Shown here: positions 29,237 to 33,362 of the stretch, in pieces
How positions within the stretch are numbered: position 1 is the stretch's first letter
How the letters are laid out: each line of letters opens with the position of its first letter
NCBI RefSeq assembly: GCF_004331455.1
Contig: NZ_SJJR01000017.1
Coordinates: 1-64,000, forward strand
DNA from: Micromonospora zingiberis
Lineage (GTDB): Bacteria > Actinomycetota > Actinomycetes > Mycobacteriales > Micromonosporaceae
Direction of reading: 5' to 3'
DNA: 64,000 bases
Made by a program: the position numbers and the translations under genes
Notes under the pieces: generated by a model
The model's database searches: none
Seen by the model: the letters and a program-made list of their open reading frames with translations, nothing else
What the model was told of the DNA's origin: nothing

Positions 29237-30880
29237 TCAACTCCGCGAGATCACCTCGTTGCTGGCCAGGCTCTCGGTGCGTTGCCGGATCAACGTACGC
29301 AGGCTCTCGGCGTCAGCACTTGTCGTTCCGGCGTCGGATCCGTCCACGGTGGACAGCATCTCGGCTGTCGCGTCCACCGCGGCCAACGCCGCACCGTCGG
29401 CAAAGAGTCGCTGGTAGAGGTCGCGGTAGGCGTCCTCGTACACCTGCTTGAACGTGGCGCTGGCCAGGAAGCGTTCCTTGAGCAGGTGACCGTTGCCGCC
29501 AGGCCCACCGTCGCCACCACCGGGAGCACCGTTGCCACCGGGAGCACCGTTGCCGCCAGGGTCGGCGTTGCCGTCAGGGAGGGTGTCATCCGGGTCGGGC
29601 GGGGTGAAACCGGCGGGAGGTTCAGCCGCCGGCGCGCCGGCGACACCGCCCGCCCGGAAACCCCCGCCGAGCCGGCCCTGCTCGTGCGGGCCCTGGGTGG
29701 CGCTGCCGCTGAAGGCGAGGTTGTAGTCCCAGCCGATGACGGTGAACCGTTTCGTGGCGAGGTCGTACCAGAGGTAGTAGTTGCGGCCGGGGCCGGCCAT
29801 GTCGTCGAAGTTGAGCAGCAGGTTCTGCCAGGCCGCGTACCGGGCGAAGGATTCGACGTCGATCCGGTCGGCGAGTTGCTCGTCGAACTCGGCGTCGCTG
29901 GCGGTGTCCACCCATCTGATCAGGTCGATGACCGGTTGCAGGTCCTGGCTGCCCTTCATGGTGATCTGTTTGAAGTCGTCGGCGTACGCAGTCTGGTCGT
30001 CGCCCTGGTCGGTGAACTGGCTGGTGGCCAGCGACTTGTAGAGCACACCCGCACCGTCGAAGTCCTCGGCGAAGTGCTCGTCGGGATGCTCCACGATCAG
30101 TCGCGCGGTGGTGGGCCGGTCGTTGACGGTGAAGCTGGTGTACGCGTACTCCTGGGCCACCTCGCCGGCCGCGGCCAGCAGGTTCAGGGTGACCGCCTCG
30201 TTGAGCACGGTCGAGCCGCCGCCCATTCCGCCCACCCGCACCGCGATCTCCCGGTGGCCCTGATAGCGGCGGCCGTCCACGAACTCGTCGAAGCGGATCA
30301 ACCACGGCAGCGTCTCCGGCTCCTCGGCCTTCAGCGAGGTCTGGGAGAACGCACCGCCATCGGTTCGACCGGCGCGCCCGGCCTGACCGTCGGTCCGGGT
30401 CTGGCCATCGGGCCGGGTCTGACCGTCGGGCCGGGTCTGACCATCGGGCCGGGGCTGACCGTCCGCTCCGGCCGGGCCGCCGGAGCGCTGCGGGGTTTCG
30501 CCGTTGCGACTCAGGCTGCGCAGGGTGGAGTTGCCCTTCAGCCGGATGCCGACGCTGGGGATCGTGGTGCCGTCGATGACCAGGTCGGCCTCGATGTACT
30601 CCTTCTCCCCCTCGGCGTAGAAGGCGTCCAGCATGCGCTCGTAGTCGGCGTCGCGGAAGACCAACTCGATGCGGTGCGCCACCGTCTCGTCGAACAGGTC
30701 CACGGTGCCGGCGATGTCGTGCGTCACCACGTCACCGCCGGTGTCGCTGGTGCTGGTCACGTACGGGCGGACGGGTACCGAACTGAGCGTGACGGTGAGC
30801 ACGAGCAGGAACGCCAGGCAGCCGACCAGGAACCTCCAGTAGTGCCGGATCCGGATCGGGATCCGGTATTTCCCGCGCAT
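29237..30880 (-). CDS. CotH kinase-like protein
   Basis: The 547-residue protein has one N-terminal membrane anchor (FLVGCLAFLLVLTVTL) and a CotH domain. Seen are VGIRLKGNST (nucleotide-binding side), WLIRFDEFVDGRRYQG, AAWQNLLLNFDDMAGPG and VIGWDYNLAF (metal-binding Asp). Bacillus CotH is an atypical kinase that phosphorylates spore-coat proteins. Disordered inserts are rich in DGQTRP and PGGNGA repeats. Its ATG overlaps the DUF4956 stop as TGATG. It is the third gene of the VTC operon. Confidence 0.85.
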   Translation of the reverse strand: MRGKYRIPIRIRHYWRFLVGCLAFLLVLTVTLSSVPVRPYVTSTSDTGGDVVTHDIAGTVDLFDETVAHRIELVFRDADYERMLDAFYAEGEKEYIEADLVIDGTTIPSVGIRLKGNSTLRSLSRNGETPQRSGGPAGADGQPRPDGQTRPDGQTRPDGQTRTDGQAGRAGRTDGGAFSQTSLKAEEPETLPWLIRFDEFVDGRRYQGHREIAVRVGGMGGGSTVLNEAVTLNLLAAAGEVAQEYAYTSFTVNDRPTTARLIVEHPDEHFAEDFDGAGVLYKSLATSQFTDQGDDQTAYADDFKQITMKGSQDLQPVIDLIRWVDTASDAEFDEQLADRIDVESFARYAAWQNLLLNFDDMAGPGRNYYLWYDLATKRFTVIGWDYNLAFSGSATQGPHEQGRLGGGFRAGGVAGAPAAEPPAGFTPPDPDDTLPDGNADPGGNGAPGGNGAPGGGDGGPGGNGHLLKERFLASATFKQVYEDAYRDLYQRLFADGAALAAVDATAEMLSTVDGSDAGTTSADAESLRTLIRQRTESLASNEVISRS

Positions 30881-31557
30881 CACAGGTCCGTCTGGTCGTA
30901 GCCGGTCAGCACGGTCACCCGCTGGCCGCCGGTCCGCTCGGCCAACGCGTTGATCAGCTCACCCGGTTCGGTGCCCTTCTTCAGCCGGACCGTGTACATG
31001 ATCTCGGTCAGGGCGCCGCCCCGGACGGTCTCCATGCTGACCAACTCGAACTCACTGGTGAGGCGGATCAACACGTCCTGGATGTACTCGGTGTAGTTGC
31101 CACTCGGCGGCACCTGCACCTTGACCACCTGACGCTGTACGTGGGACGCGAACCAGTTGAAGCGGTACATCAACACGATGATCAGGCTGATCGCGACGGC
31201 GGCCACCACGCCCAGCAGGTAGAACCGGGTGCCGCAGGCCATGCCCACGCCCATCACCAGGAAGATGAACCCGACATCGCGGGTCTCCTTGATGGCGTTG
31301 CGGAACCGCACCACCGACAGGGCACCGACCAGGGCGAAGGCGCGGGCGATGTTGGAGCCGACGACGAGCATGATCAGCGAGATGAGCATGCCGAGAATGA
31401 CAAGCGTCTGCACGTACGACTGGCTGTACGACACATTGCGGTGGGTGAACCGGTAGACCCAGCCGATCATCGCGCTGAGCAGGAACGACAGCGACAGGGT
31501 CAGGGCGATGTCGCCGACGCTGAACGTGCCGGACAGATCCTGGAACTCGAACGGCAT
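30880..31557 (-). CDS. DUF4956 membrane protein
   Basis: The 225-residue protein has four hydrophobic segments in residues 20-135 and a soluble C-terminal domain. The pattern ALVGALSVVRFRNAIKETRDVGFIF (in two pieces) is the DUF4956 signature, similar to MgtC-like membrane cores. It is sandwiched between the VTC and CotH genes, with a 2-bp gap to the former and a 1-base overlap with the latter. It is the likely membrane component of a polyphosphate-linked complex; that is inference. Confidence 0.88.
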   Translation of the reverse strand: MPFEFQDLSGTFSVGDIALTLSLSFLLSAMIGWVYRFTHRNVSYSQSYVQTLVILGMLISLIMLVVGSNIARAFALVGALSVVRFRNAIKETRDVGFIFLVMGVGMACGTRFYLLGVVAAVAISLIIVLMYRFNWFASHVQRQVVKVQVPPSGNYTEYIQDVLIRLTSEFELVSMETVRGGALTEIMYTVRLKKGTEPGELINALAERTGGQRVTVLTGYDQTDL

Positions 31558-31559
31558 GG

Positions 31560-32501
31560 TCAGGCCTCACTTCTCGCGTAGGGGGAGGTCGACCCGGCGG
31601 CAGCCGGGCCGGATGACGCAACGGCGTCGTCGTCGGCGACGTGGTACAGGGAACGGGGAGCGCGGCCGAACGCCTCGACGCTCTGGCAGTACTTCGACAT
31701 GCGGACGATGGCCAGGTTCGTCCGGGCGGCCAGGTCGGTCAGCCAGTACGGCACCCGCTCGTTGGCCTTGATTTCCAGCACGGAGAACTTCGCCGGCACG
31801 ATGAGCCGGTTCTCGGCGTCCGCGCCGAGGTGGAAGTCGCGGTCCCGGCCGCGTACCCGGTGGTCGAGGGTGACCCGCAGGCCGAGGTCGGATTCCCGGC
31901 CGACGAACGCCTCCCGCTGGTAGCCGGTCATCGCCACGGGACGCAGGTCCAGGCCGCAGAGCAGTTCCAGCACCTCGTCGAGGAAGGCCCGCTGCTGCGG
32001 GGCGTGCTCGACCATCTGCCGCCGGTCGCACAGCTCGCGGGCCAGGTGGTACGGCATGGCCACCCGGCGTTTCTGGGTGACCCGGTTGACCCGCTGCTTG
32101 ATCTCAACGTGCACGACGCTGTCGTCGGTGACGGTGGACCGGTCACCGTAGTGCCGCACCCGCAGCTTGCGGCGGAACTTCAGCCCTTCGATCTTCTCCC
32201 AGTAGAAGCGCAGCCCGGTGGTGTCGTAGTAGACGCTCCACACGCCGTACCCGGTGCTGCCGCCGTGGCTGTCGCGCTCCATCCGGGCGGCGAACTGCTC
32301 GCGCAGGGCCGGCACGTCGCCGGTGGGCACCAGATACTTGATCTCGTACCGGTTGAAGGCATGCAACCGGCTGGCCGCCCGCAACGCAGGCCCGCCCCGG
32401 TCGTCACCACCCTCCGGTCCGGTATCGGTAGTGAACGGTGCTTCGAAGGACGACGGTAGGTCTGGATCGCGGGACGAAGCCCGACGGAGCCACGAGCGCA
32501 T
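31560..32501 (-). CDS. VTC-domain polyphosphate polymerase
   Basis: The 313-residue protein is a VTC (vacuolar transporter chaperone) catalytic domain, the tunnel-fold enzyme that makes polyphosphate from ATP in yeast and some bacteria. Visible motifs are RYEIKYLVP, VWSVYYDTTGLRFY, KLRVRHYGD, HVEIKQRVNRVTQK and FSVLEIKANERVPYW. These basic and acidic residues line the tunnel of the known structure. It has no membrane segment, so DUF4956 probably anchors it. Upstream is an apparent PHO box. Confidence 0.88.
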   Translation of the reverse strand: MRSWLRRASSRDPDLPSSFEAPFTTDTGPEGGDDRGGPALRAASRLHAFNRYEIKYLVPTGDVPALREQFAARMERDSHGGSTGYGVWSVYYDTTGLRFYWEKIEGLKFRRKLRVRHYGDRSTVTDDSVVHVEIKQRVNRVTQKRRVAMPYHLARELCDRRQMVEHAPQQRAFLDEVLELLCGLDLRPVAMTGYQREAFVGRESDLGLRVTLDHRVRGRDRDFHLGADAENRLIVPAKFSVLEIKANERVPYWLTDLAARTNLAIVRMSKYCQSVEAFGRAPRSLYHVADDDAVASSGPAAAGSTSPYARSEA

Positions 32502-32552
32502 ACGAGTCGGCCGATCTCTGTGGGAGCAGGGACCAGCACATACAAGCGGGCC

Positions 32553-32596
32553 GGGCTATGAACCAGCTTTGTGTTCCGGATGAACCAGCGGTGAAC
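32553..32596 (-). promoter_or_regulatory. PHO-box-like 11-nt direct repeats
   Basis: On the minus strand four phased 11-base units read GTTCACCGCTG, GTTCATCCGGA, ACACAAAGCTG and GTTCATAGCCC. Known Streptomyces PhoP sites are 11-base direct repeats of GTTCACC followed by four free bases, which units 1, 2 and 4 match. The last unit is 52 bases before the VTC start codon, and a TATGTG resembling a -10 lies 10 bases after it. This suggests phosphate-starvation control of the polyphosphate operon. PhoP itself is not in the window. Confidence 0.7.
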
Positions 32597-32628
32597 CGCC
32601 GCAGGCCGTACCGTCGACAACAACCCGC

Positions 32629-32657
32629 GATGTAAAAGTTTCTAGACACGGTGTCAA
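32629..32657 (-). promoter_or_regulatory. Consensus-like promoter within inverted repeat
   Basis: On the minus strand TTGACA is followed, 17 bp on, by TACATC. It reads toward the PHO box and the VTC operon. The -10 lies in one arm of a 9-bp perfect inverted repeat (CGATGTAAA at 32628-32636, TTTACATCG at 32689-32697) that flanks the divergent intergenic region. A small palindrome GACACGGTGTC (32645-32655) is inside. Confidence 0.55.
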
Positions 32658-32706
32658 ACACACCTTACCCTGAGCCTGTCAAGGATTCTTTACATCGGGA
32701 GCGGTC

Positions 32707-33135
32707 ATGACCCATCAGGAGAGACGCGCCTGGATCATGCTGGTGGTCAGCGTGATCGCGTACGCCGGCTACGTGACGGTCGTCCTGGGCCGGCGCGACG
32801 GCGGCTCGCTCGTCGCGGTGCCCTATGTCGGCGCGCTGCTCTGGACGGTGGGCGGCGCCATGGTCGCGAGCATGGTGGCCGAGATCGTGATGGGCATGGC
32901 CAACCCCCGGGCGTCCCGGGTTACCGACGCCCGCGACCGGGAGATCGGGCGCCTCGGCGACCACGTCGGCCAGGCGTTCGTGATCATCGGCGCGGTGTCG
33001 GCGATGCTCATGGCGATGGCCGAGTGGGACCGGTTCTGGATCGCCAACGTCATCTACCTCTGCTTCGTCCTGTCGGCCGTGATCGGCTCCCTGGCGAAGG
33101 TGATCGTCTACCGCAGGGGCGTGCCGCAGTGGTGA
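32707..33135 (+). CDS. Four-helix membrane protein
   Basis: The 142-residue protein has four hydrophobic segments (about residues 9-27, 38-60, 87-107, 112-132). I do not recognise a domain. Its stop overlaps the GTG of an XRE regulator as GTGA. Small membrane proteins fused operonically to a single-domain XRE regulator are common and the pair probably acts as a sensor-regulator unit; that is inference. The ATG at 32707 has GGGAG upstream. Confidence 0.75.
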   Translation: MTHQERRAWIMLVVSVIAYAGYVTVVLGRRDGGSLVAVPYVGALLWTVGGAMVASMVAEIVMGMANPRASRVTDARDREIGRLGDHVGQAFVIIGAVSAMLMAMAEWDRFWIANVIYLCFVLSAVIGSLAKVIVYRRGVPQW

Positions 33136-33362
33136 AACCGACCCGCGTCACCAACAACATCCGGGCGCTGCGTTTCGCCCACGACGAGATGACCCAGGCC
33201 GATCTCGCCGAGCGGATCGGTGTGACCCGGCAGACCGTGATCGCCATCGAGCAGGGCCGCTACTCGCCCTCCCTGGAGATGGCCTTCCGGATCGCCCACG
33301 TGTTCCACGTACGGCTCGACGACGTGTTCCAGTACCCCGACCAGGAGGAGGTGGCACCGTGA
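33132..33362 (+). CDS. XRE-family regulator, single HTH domain
   Basis: The 76-residue protein is a helix-turn-helix domain of the Cro/CI type with the typical pattern MTQADLAERIGVTRQTVIAIEQGRYSPSLEMA (seen in two pieces, about residues 18-50) and a C-terminal DDVFQYP. It starts at a GTG overlapping the membrane protein stop and ends overlapping the oxidoreductase GTG, so the three are translationally coupled. It may regulate its own operon. Confidence 0.92.
   Translation: MKPTRVTNNIRALRFAHDEMTQADLAERIGVTRQTVIAIEQGRYSPSLEMAFRIAHVFHVRLDDVFQYPDQEEVAP

Follow-up and report, generated by a model that had tools for sequence, protein, structure and literature searches.

The operon and its upstream repeat array

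The window analysed here is a stretch of 64,000 nucleotides (nt) of Micromonospora zingiberis DNA (assembly GCF_004331455.1, contig NZ_SJJR01000017.1, positions 1 to 64,000), taken from a genome of 6.5 Mb. It contains a tightly packed operon on the minus strand, running from 32501 to 29237, that encodes a VTC-domain protein, a DUF4956 membrane protein and a CotH-type protein in this order. The VTC and DUF4956 genes are 2 nt apart and the DUF4956 and CotH genes overlap by 4 nt. Four 11-nt units resembling PHO boxes precede the operon and end 51 nt from the VTC start codon (Table 1). The original prediction, made from the letters of the DNA, had described three coupled genes, for a polyphosphate polymerase domain, a membrane protein and a CotH-type kinase, behind phased GTTCACC-like 11-base repeats that match Streptomyces PhoP sites. 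The observation was confirmed: the Pfam matches bear out the gene content, and the genes are closely packed. When the three proteins were searched against NCBIfam, none matched at E 0.01.

Table 1. Coordinates of the operon and its upstream elements in the window
Feature	Position	Strand	Evidence
VTC-domain protein, predicted cytoplasmic polyphosphate polymerase, 313 residues	31560..32501	minus	PF09359, E 1.4e-43; conserved Vtc4 tunnel residues; nearest folds VTC
DUF4956 membrane protein, 225 residues	30880..31557	minus	PF16316, E 1.5e-21; sub-threshold MgtC match; hydropathy; low-confidence model
CotH-type kinase, 548 residues, domain predicted to lie outside	29237..30883	minus	PF08757, E 2e-28; invariant aspartates; hydropathy
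PHO-box-like array, four 11-nt units	32553..32596	minus	GTTCACCGCTG, GTTCATCCGGA, degenerate ACACAAAGCTG, GTTCATAGCCC, read from 32596 to 32553; conserved in orthologous loci
Tentative -10-like hexamer TTGTAT	32540..32545	minus	Alignment read by eye; TTGNAT in 8 of 10 close relatives, window included

The PHO box of Streptomyces coelicolor consists, in the available passages of the papers that describe it, of two 11-nt direct repeats with the core GTTCACC (PMC4415409, PMC7244524, PMC7866108). Units 1, 2 and 4 of the array are full matches to GKTCAY and unit 3 is degenerate; three of the four units agree with the Streptomyces core GTTCAYY. The array was scored against the Streptomyces consensus. 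The strict pattern GTTCAYN5GTTCAY matched once in the window and not at all in 100 dinucleotide shuffles. The four-unit score of 20 out of 24 is the highest in the window, and 1 of 100 Markov-resampled windows reached it as well. A loose pattern with up to three mismatches showed no excess over chance in the window (10 observed, 10.9 expected); the strict motif and comparative tests were therefore used. Taken by itself, the window provides moderate evidence for the array. It is the whole-genome motif counts and the comparative data that place it far beyond chance. A terminator scan and an Rfam search found nothing.

Conservation of the array and candidate Pho regulation

The exact motif was found at only three places in the genome, namely before pstS, before phoX and before the VTC operon, and the reversed pattern used as a control gave no match. 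The pstS motif sits 64 nt upstream of the gene, which adjoins a phoU gene. The phoX motif precedes the probable start of the gene (PF05787, E 2.2e-160) by 99 nt, this start being taken here as a later ATG (L004:1617); the over-extended frame given by a simple gene caller would include the box. When one mismatch was allowed, there were 40 matches in the genome and 6 for the control, with many of the former falling inside genes as drawn by the simple gene caller. A one-mismatch pair of this kind precedes ppk1, at a distance of 23 nt from its first candidate start (contig C5; L178:1501-1517 and L263:864-904). Across 150 genomes of the family Micromonosporaceae, the exact motif was found 531 times, spread over 143 genomes, compared with 52 occurrences of the reversed control in 37. 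The downstream gene was pstS-like in 13 of 30 motif-selected family loci, ppk1 in 1 and phoX in 1.

Some further pairs were noted in passing. An exact pair stands ahead of ppk1 in another genus (L212). Two one-mismatch pairs of the M. zingiberis genome lie in apparently intergenic DNA, one near a gene for an epimerase of the polysaccharide-synthesis type (L188:1501-1517) and one near a gene for a trypsin-like protease (L193:1501-1517); judged by the motif, these two genes are possible additional Pho targets.

A candidate regulator was also identified. The genome encodes a protein that is closest to RegX3 (2oqr, E 4.6e-108), the next match being MtrA (E 3.9e-60). Its gene directly follows a histidine kinase gene and is divergent from phoU, which we take to be the SenX3-RegX3/PhoR-PhoP arrangement, and the protein itself is presumably the orthologue of Streptomyces PhoP.

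The distribution of the operon was evaluated by searching for the VTC domain. Matches were found in 76 of the 150 family genomes and fell into two classes, a division by score made for this analysis. Within the genus, 59 of 160 genomes had a VTC match, and in 29 it was of the first class (>140 bits). Any VTC match at all was found in 60 of 394 genomes of the class sample and in 32 of 296 of the phylum sample. The operon is accessory. The closest named relative of the VTC protein is that of M. gifhornensis, with 87% identity.

Eighty VTC loci were fetched, comprising all listed first-class places except the window's own (51) and 29 of the second class. The locus L110, which belongs to the second VTC subfamily and had been matched by BLAST, was excluded from the upstream counts, which left 52 first-class loci with the window. 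Upstream DNA was measured from the first BLAST-aligned VTC residue rather than from a mapped start, and a pair was counted when it was near-perfect (>=11/12) and lay within 300 nt upstream. DUF4956 and CotH genes follow VTC on the same strand in 51 of the 52; the exception, L084, has a partial VTC gene only. A pair spaced by 11 nt was present on the coding strand in 33 of the 52 loci and on the opposite strand in none. Pairs spaced by 22 nt were found in 24 and by 33 nt in 19, and no other spacing between 6 and 44 nt was found in more than 5. Altogether, 42 of the 52 loci, from 17 of 19 genera, have a pair at 11, 22 or 33 nt; when the phase was moved by 1 to 7 nt, no more than 9 loci had one. 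The motif occurs 36 times in 15.6 kb of upstream DNA, always on the coding strand, compared with 24 times on both strands of 372.7 kb of other DNA of the same loci, with L110 included. Since the loci are mutually related and the counts are not independent events, it is the spacing and strand controls that carry the argument. In an alignment of ten close relatives, conservation extends from the array down to the gene, while the DNA farther upstream has diverged.

Similar results were obtained with other sets of loci, which overlap in part and were not summed. The array was present in 25 of 26 additional loci of the genus, whereas shifted phases gave no more than 6 and the opposite strand gave none. 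Among 80 named loci, the trio lies on one strand in all 80 and the array was found in 65, made up of 43 of 54 from the family (Glycomyces included) and 22 of 26 from other families. The latter include Nonomuraea, Acrocarpospora, Actinomadura, Amycolatopsis and two of three Streptomyces loci. With shifted phases the count did not exceed 10 in the family and 6 in the other families, and on the opposite strand it was 2 and 0. The class sample, which was scanned over 500 nt at 11-nt spacing and again over 300 nt at spacings of 11, 22 and 33 nt, gave ten first-class loci outside the family. All ten have the trio and five have the array (three at 11-nt spacing), with shifted phases at most 2 and one pair on the opposite strand. 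The 29 loci of the second VTC subfamily (L085-L113) have the motif in 2 and on the coding strand in none, and a pair was found in 1 of 25 more distant VTC loci, where shifted phases gave at most 2. Because the second-class and distant loci lack it, the array is a property of the actinomycete clade of the operon and not of VTC genes at large.

Three minor features of the loci were observed. In the upstream regions of the 52 family loci, the spacing of GTTC pairs has additional peaks at 19, 30 and 41 nt, each a multiple of 11 plus 8, which suggests a second, phase-shifted half-array. One locus of the genus (L260) keeps VTC, CotH and the array and has no DUF4956 gene within the fetched flank of 1.5 kb. 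Some of the more distant loci, such as L133 and L137, have a CotH gene upstream of VTC.

Given the array, the regulator and the other genes that share the motif, the VTC operon is very probably under Pho control. The original prediction of PhoP-type PHO boxes ahead of the operon is thus strongly supported at the level of sequence by the occurrence of the motif before pstS, phoX and, with one mismatch, ppk1, by its conservation and by the RegX3/PhoP-like regulator.

The VTC, DUF4956 and CotH proteins

The VTC protein gave no match when its single sequence was compared with the PDB, and a weak match to Vtc4 when a profile was used. An AlphaFold2 model (pLDDT 70) was compared with known structures by Foldseek. 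The 13 best matches were all VTC proteins, the best being 3g3r (E 6.7e-11), and the next-best were other triphosphate tunnel metalloenzymes (TTM), among them class IV adenylate cyclases and triphosphatases. As most of the VTC matches have a TM-score of about 0.5 and a root-mean-square deviation of 6 to 8, the structural match is taken as one of fold only.

The tunnel residues of Vtc4 were assumed, as to both the set and their roles, to be K200, R264, R266, K281, R361, R373, E426, K455 and K458. These align with K55, R114, R116, K135, R196, R209, E243, R267 and K270 of the window protein, the first six in a significant alignment segment and the last three in a second segment that, taken alone, falls short of significance. 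None of the nine positions varies among 26 sequences, and the position of K455 is occupied by arginine (R267). PF09359 is the sole Pfam domain of the chain, in which neither a transmembrane-like segment, judged by hydropathy, nor an SPX match was found. The conserved active-site residues and the fold support the polymerase assignment originally proposed, and the protein probably synthesises polyphosphate. The VTC catalytic domain, the tunnel residues and the fold are common to this protein and to the yeast VTC complex (Vtc4/Vtc3/Vtc1). Unlike the eukaryotic proteins, it has no SPX or transmembrane-like segment, and the membrane part is supplied by a different protein, from another family.

Hydropathy analysis of the DUF4956 protein indicated four transmembrane-like segments. 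Five N-terminal helices and a C-terminal ACT-like domain are seen in a model of poor quality (pLDDT 64). The model is not taken to indicate a channel, as there was no fold match at E 0.001 or better and the matches obtained reflect the small ACT/ferredoxin-like domain. SIR_1592 of Streptococcus intermedius, which is described as having four transmembrane segments and an intracellular ACT domain in the available part of PMC12345266, resembles the DUF4956 protein of the window.

The CotH protein has, by hydropathy, a single N-terminal transmembrane segment. Since basic residues precede this segment, the CotH domain is probably extracytoplasmic. The match to structure 5jd9 was weak (E 0.006 with the single sequence and 9.6e-6 as a profile). 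The catalytic aspartates of CotH are presumably D228 and D251. In the window protein, D360 and D386 align with the NFD and WDYD motifs of 5jd9 and are invariant in 25 sequences, so the predicted kinase assignment is supported by conserved catalytic aspartates. The equivalents of D166, N171 and D184 of protein kinase A are kept in CotH, according to the part of PMC12189002 that was available. The Bacillus spore-coat kinase CotH shares the domain and the catalytic aspartates, whereas the protein of the window has an N-terminal membrane anchor and Gly/Pro-rich insertions and shares its operon with the VTC and DUF4956 genes. These insertions lie between conserved blocks and are highly variable in length.

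Probable phosphate control and the proposed role of the trio

The gene content, the near-fixed synteny, the conserved array and the conserved active sites are direct observations. From them we infer the binding and the direction of regulation, the synthesis and translocation of polyphosphate, and the activity and substrate of CotH. Under phosphate limitation, the RegX3/PhoP-type regulator would bind the four-unit array and alter transcription, most likely by activation; the location of the array just upstream of the conserved TTGNAT suits an activator site. The VTC protein would make polyphosphate from ATP at the cytoplasmic face of the membrane. DUF4956 would serve as its membrane anchor and may conduct the polymer outward as it is synthesised, which is what the membrane part of the VTC complex does in yeast. 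CotH, tethered outside, would phosphorylate a component of the envelope. Of the observations on CotH, only the predicted topology, with one N-terminal membrane segment and the domain probably outside, fits the original suggestion that it could phosphorylate or polyphosphorylate envelope proteins.

As a whole, the locus is rather likely to be a stand-alone operon of the Pho regulon that joins membrane-coupled polyphosphate synthesis to an extracytoplasmic CotH kinase. The coupling to the membrane or export through DUF4956 and the envelope role of CotH, both argued from topology and linkage, are proposed tentatively and are open to considerable doubt. It seems improbable that starvation induces the export of polyphosphate and that CotH uses the exported chain in place of ATP to phosphorylate or polyphosphorylate envelope proteins. 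If true, exported polyphosphate as the donor would solve the problem of how an extracellular kinase is supplied with energy-rich phosphate.

The association of these genes has been described elsewhere. Genes for CotH, a polyphosphate polymerase, DUF4956 and DUF4832 lie beside the pel genes for the Pel polysaccharide in streptococci and clostridia, and bifidobacteria have a variant (PMC7112168, as far as available); a locus of Clostridium perfringens contains VTC and CotH genes (PMC2879425, likewise seen in part). A 2025 paper states, in the passages available, that it did not find the three genes in synteny anywhere but at the Pel locus (PMC12345266). The stand-alone actinomycete loci speak against that statement as it appears there. 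The same three protein families are adjacent in the Pel-associated module (PMC7112168, PMC12345266), but the Micromonospora trio is stand-alone, in the order VTC-DUF4956-CotH, behind PHO-like boxes and with PelG undetected. PelG (PF16933), the sole Pel marker searched, gave no match in the M. zingiberis genome nor in 59 of 60 carrier genomes, and the remaining carrier gave a partial match of 32 bits. The model does match in one control genome; its sensitivity in the phylum is unproven, because none of 18 more distant VTC carriers matched either. Direct 11-nt repeats with the GTTCACC core are shared with the Streptomyces Pho regulon, as at the ppk and pstS promoters (PMC4415409, PMC7866108). 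The target here differs in being a VTC-type polymerase operon, which is not named in the available passages on the Pho regulon. Searches of open-licence papers brought up no actinobacterial link between VTC or CotH and either PhoP or the Pho regulon. This agrees with the original prediction, which knew of the gene association but of no description of this regulation.

The possibility was considered that the trio serves a surface polysaccharide as an accessory that regulates or modifies it, in which case Pho control would tie another envelope polymer to phosphate status. This is suggested by the position of the trio beside pel and by the altered Pel level and aggregation of S. intermedius when the DUF4956 or the CotH gene is deleted (PMC12345266, in the part available). 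However, PelG is unmatched here and in nearly all carriers, although other exopolysaccharide genes were not searched, and four neighbouring genes of the window were found in none of the 80 other fetched loci (51 first-class), whose flanks are short. The absence of these neighbours is no more than a hint that the trio forms a self-contained unit, and we regard the polysaccharide explanation as rather unlikely. The alternative that the operon stores polyphosphate in the cytoplasm or takes up an overflow, with the MgtC-like DUF4956 and CotH merely tuning phosphate or ATP homeostasis, would account for a VTC protein without transmembrane-like segments, for the sub-threshold MgtC match and for the PHO-like pair that ppk1 carries too. 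It is nevertheless unlikely, since the linkage to CotH, which probably faces outward, is nearly fixed (51 of 52 and 80 of 80 loci). Moreover, the presence of PPK1 in the genome disfavours simple storage as the only purpose of the operon.

The VTC domain might instead be a polyphosphate or nucleotide phosphohydrolase of the TTM type that frees phosphate under starvation. The ranking of other TTM enzymes as the next-best fold matches is in keeping with this; the 13 best are nonetheless all VTC proteins, and the nine Vtc4 tunnel positions are kept with a single change of lysine to arginine, which makes a hydrolase improbable. Finally, the repeats could be bound by another OmpR-type regulator, or reflect chance or relatedness, so that the operon would not be controlled by phosphate. 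Other OmpR-type regulators likewise use direct repeats, and the four-unit score did recur among the resampled windows. This explanation is very improbable in view of the strand and spacing specificity across many genera and of the placement of the motif, which in this genome also stands ahead of pstS and phoX and which is followed by a pstS-like, ppk1 or phoX gene in 15 of the 30 motif-selected family loci.

Several results weigh against a Pho-regulated operon for membrane-coupled polyphosphate synthesis. With PPK1 encoded in the genome, a second polyphosphate synthase is not needed for storage. The VTC deletion is absent from those S. intermedius deletions reported to change Pel level or aggregation in the available passages of PMC12345266. 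A scan for the sigma-70 consensus found no promoter. A pair at 11, 22 or 33 nt is missing from 10 of the 52 family loci, and the array is missing from 5 of the 10 first-class loci outside the family. Furthermore, the solved structures related to DUF4956 include none that points to a channel.

If Pho control of the operon is correct, it would add a VTC-type polyphosphate synthase beside PPK1 to a bacterial Pho regulon. The trio is linked in the literature to the Pel polysaccharide, and the conserved PHO boxes tie its stand-alone version to phosphate status. A phosphate switch makes the job of the trio testable in soil actinomycetes, where non-pathogenic strains offer a clean system, and could reveal the phosphate source of an extracytoplasmic kinase.

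A separate element was observed beyond the array. An inverted repeat of 21 nt (76%, arms 28 nt apart, ATGTAAA/TTTACAT) lies at 32628-32697 and precedes divergent genes for a membrane protein and an HTH_3 protein (32707-33362), of which it is possibly the operator. The TTTACAT sequence recurs upstream in the loci L255 and L256.

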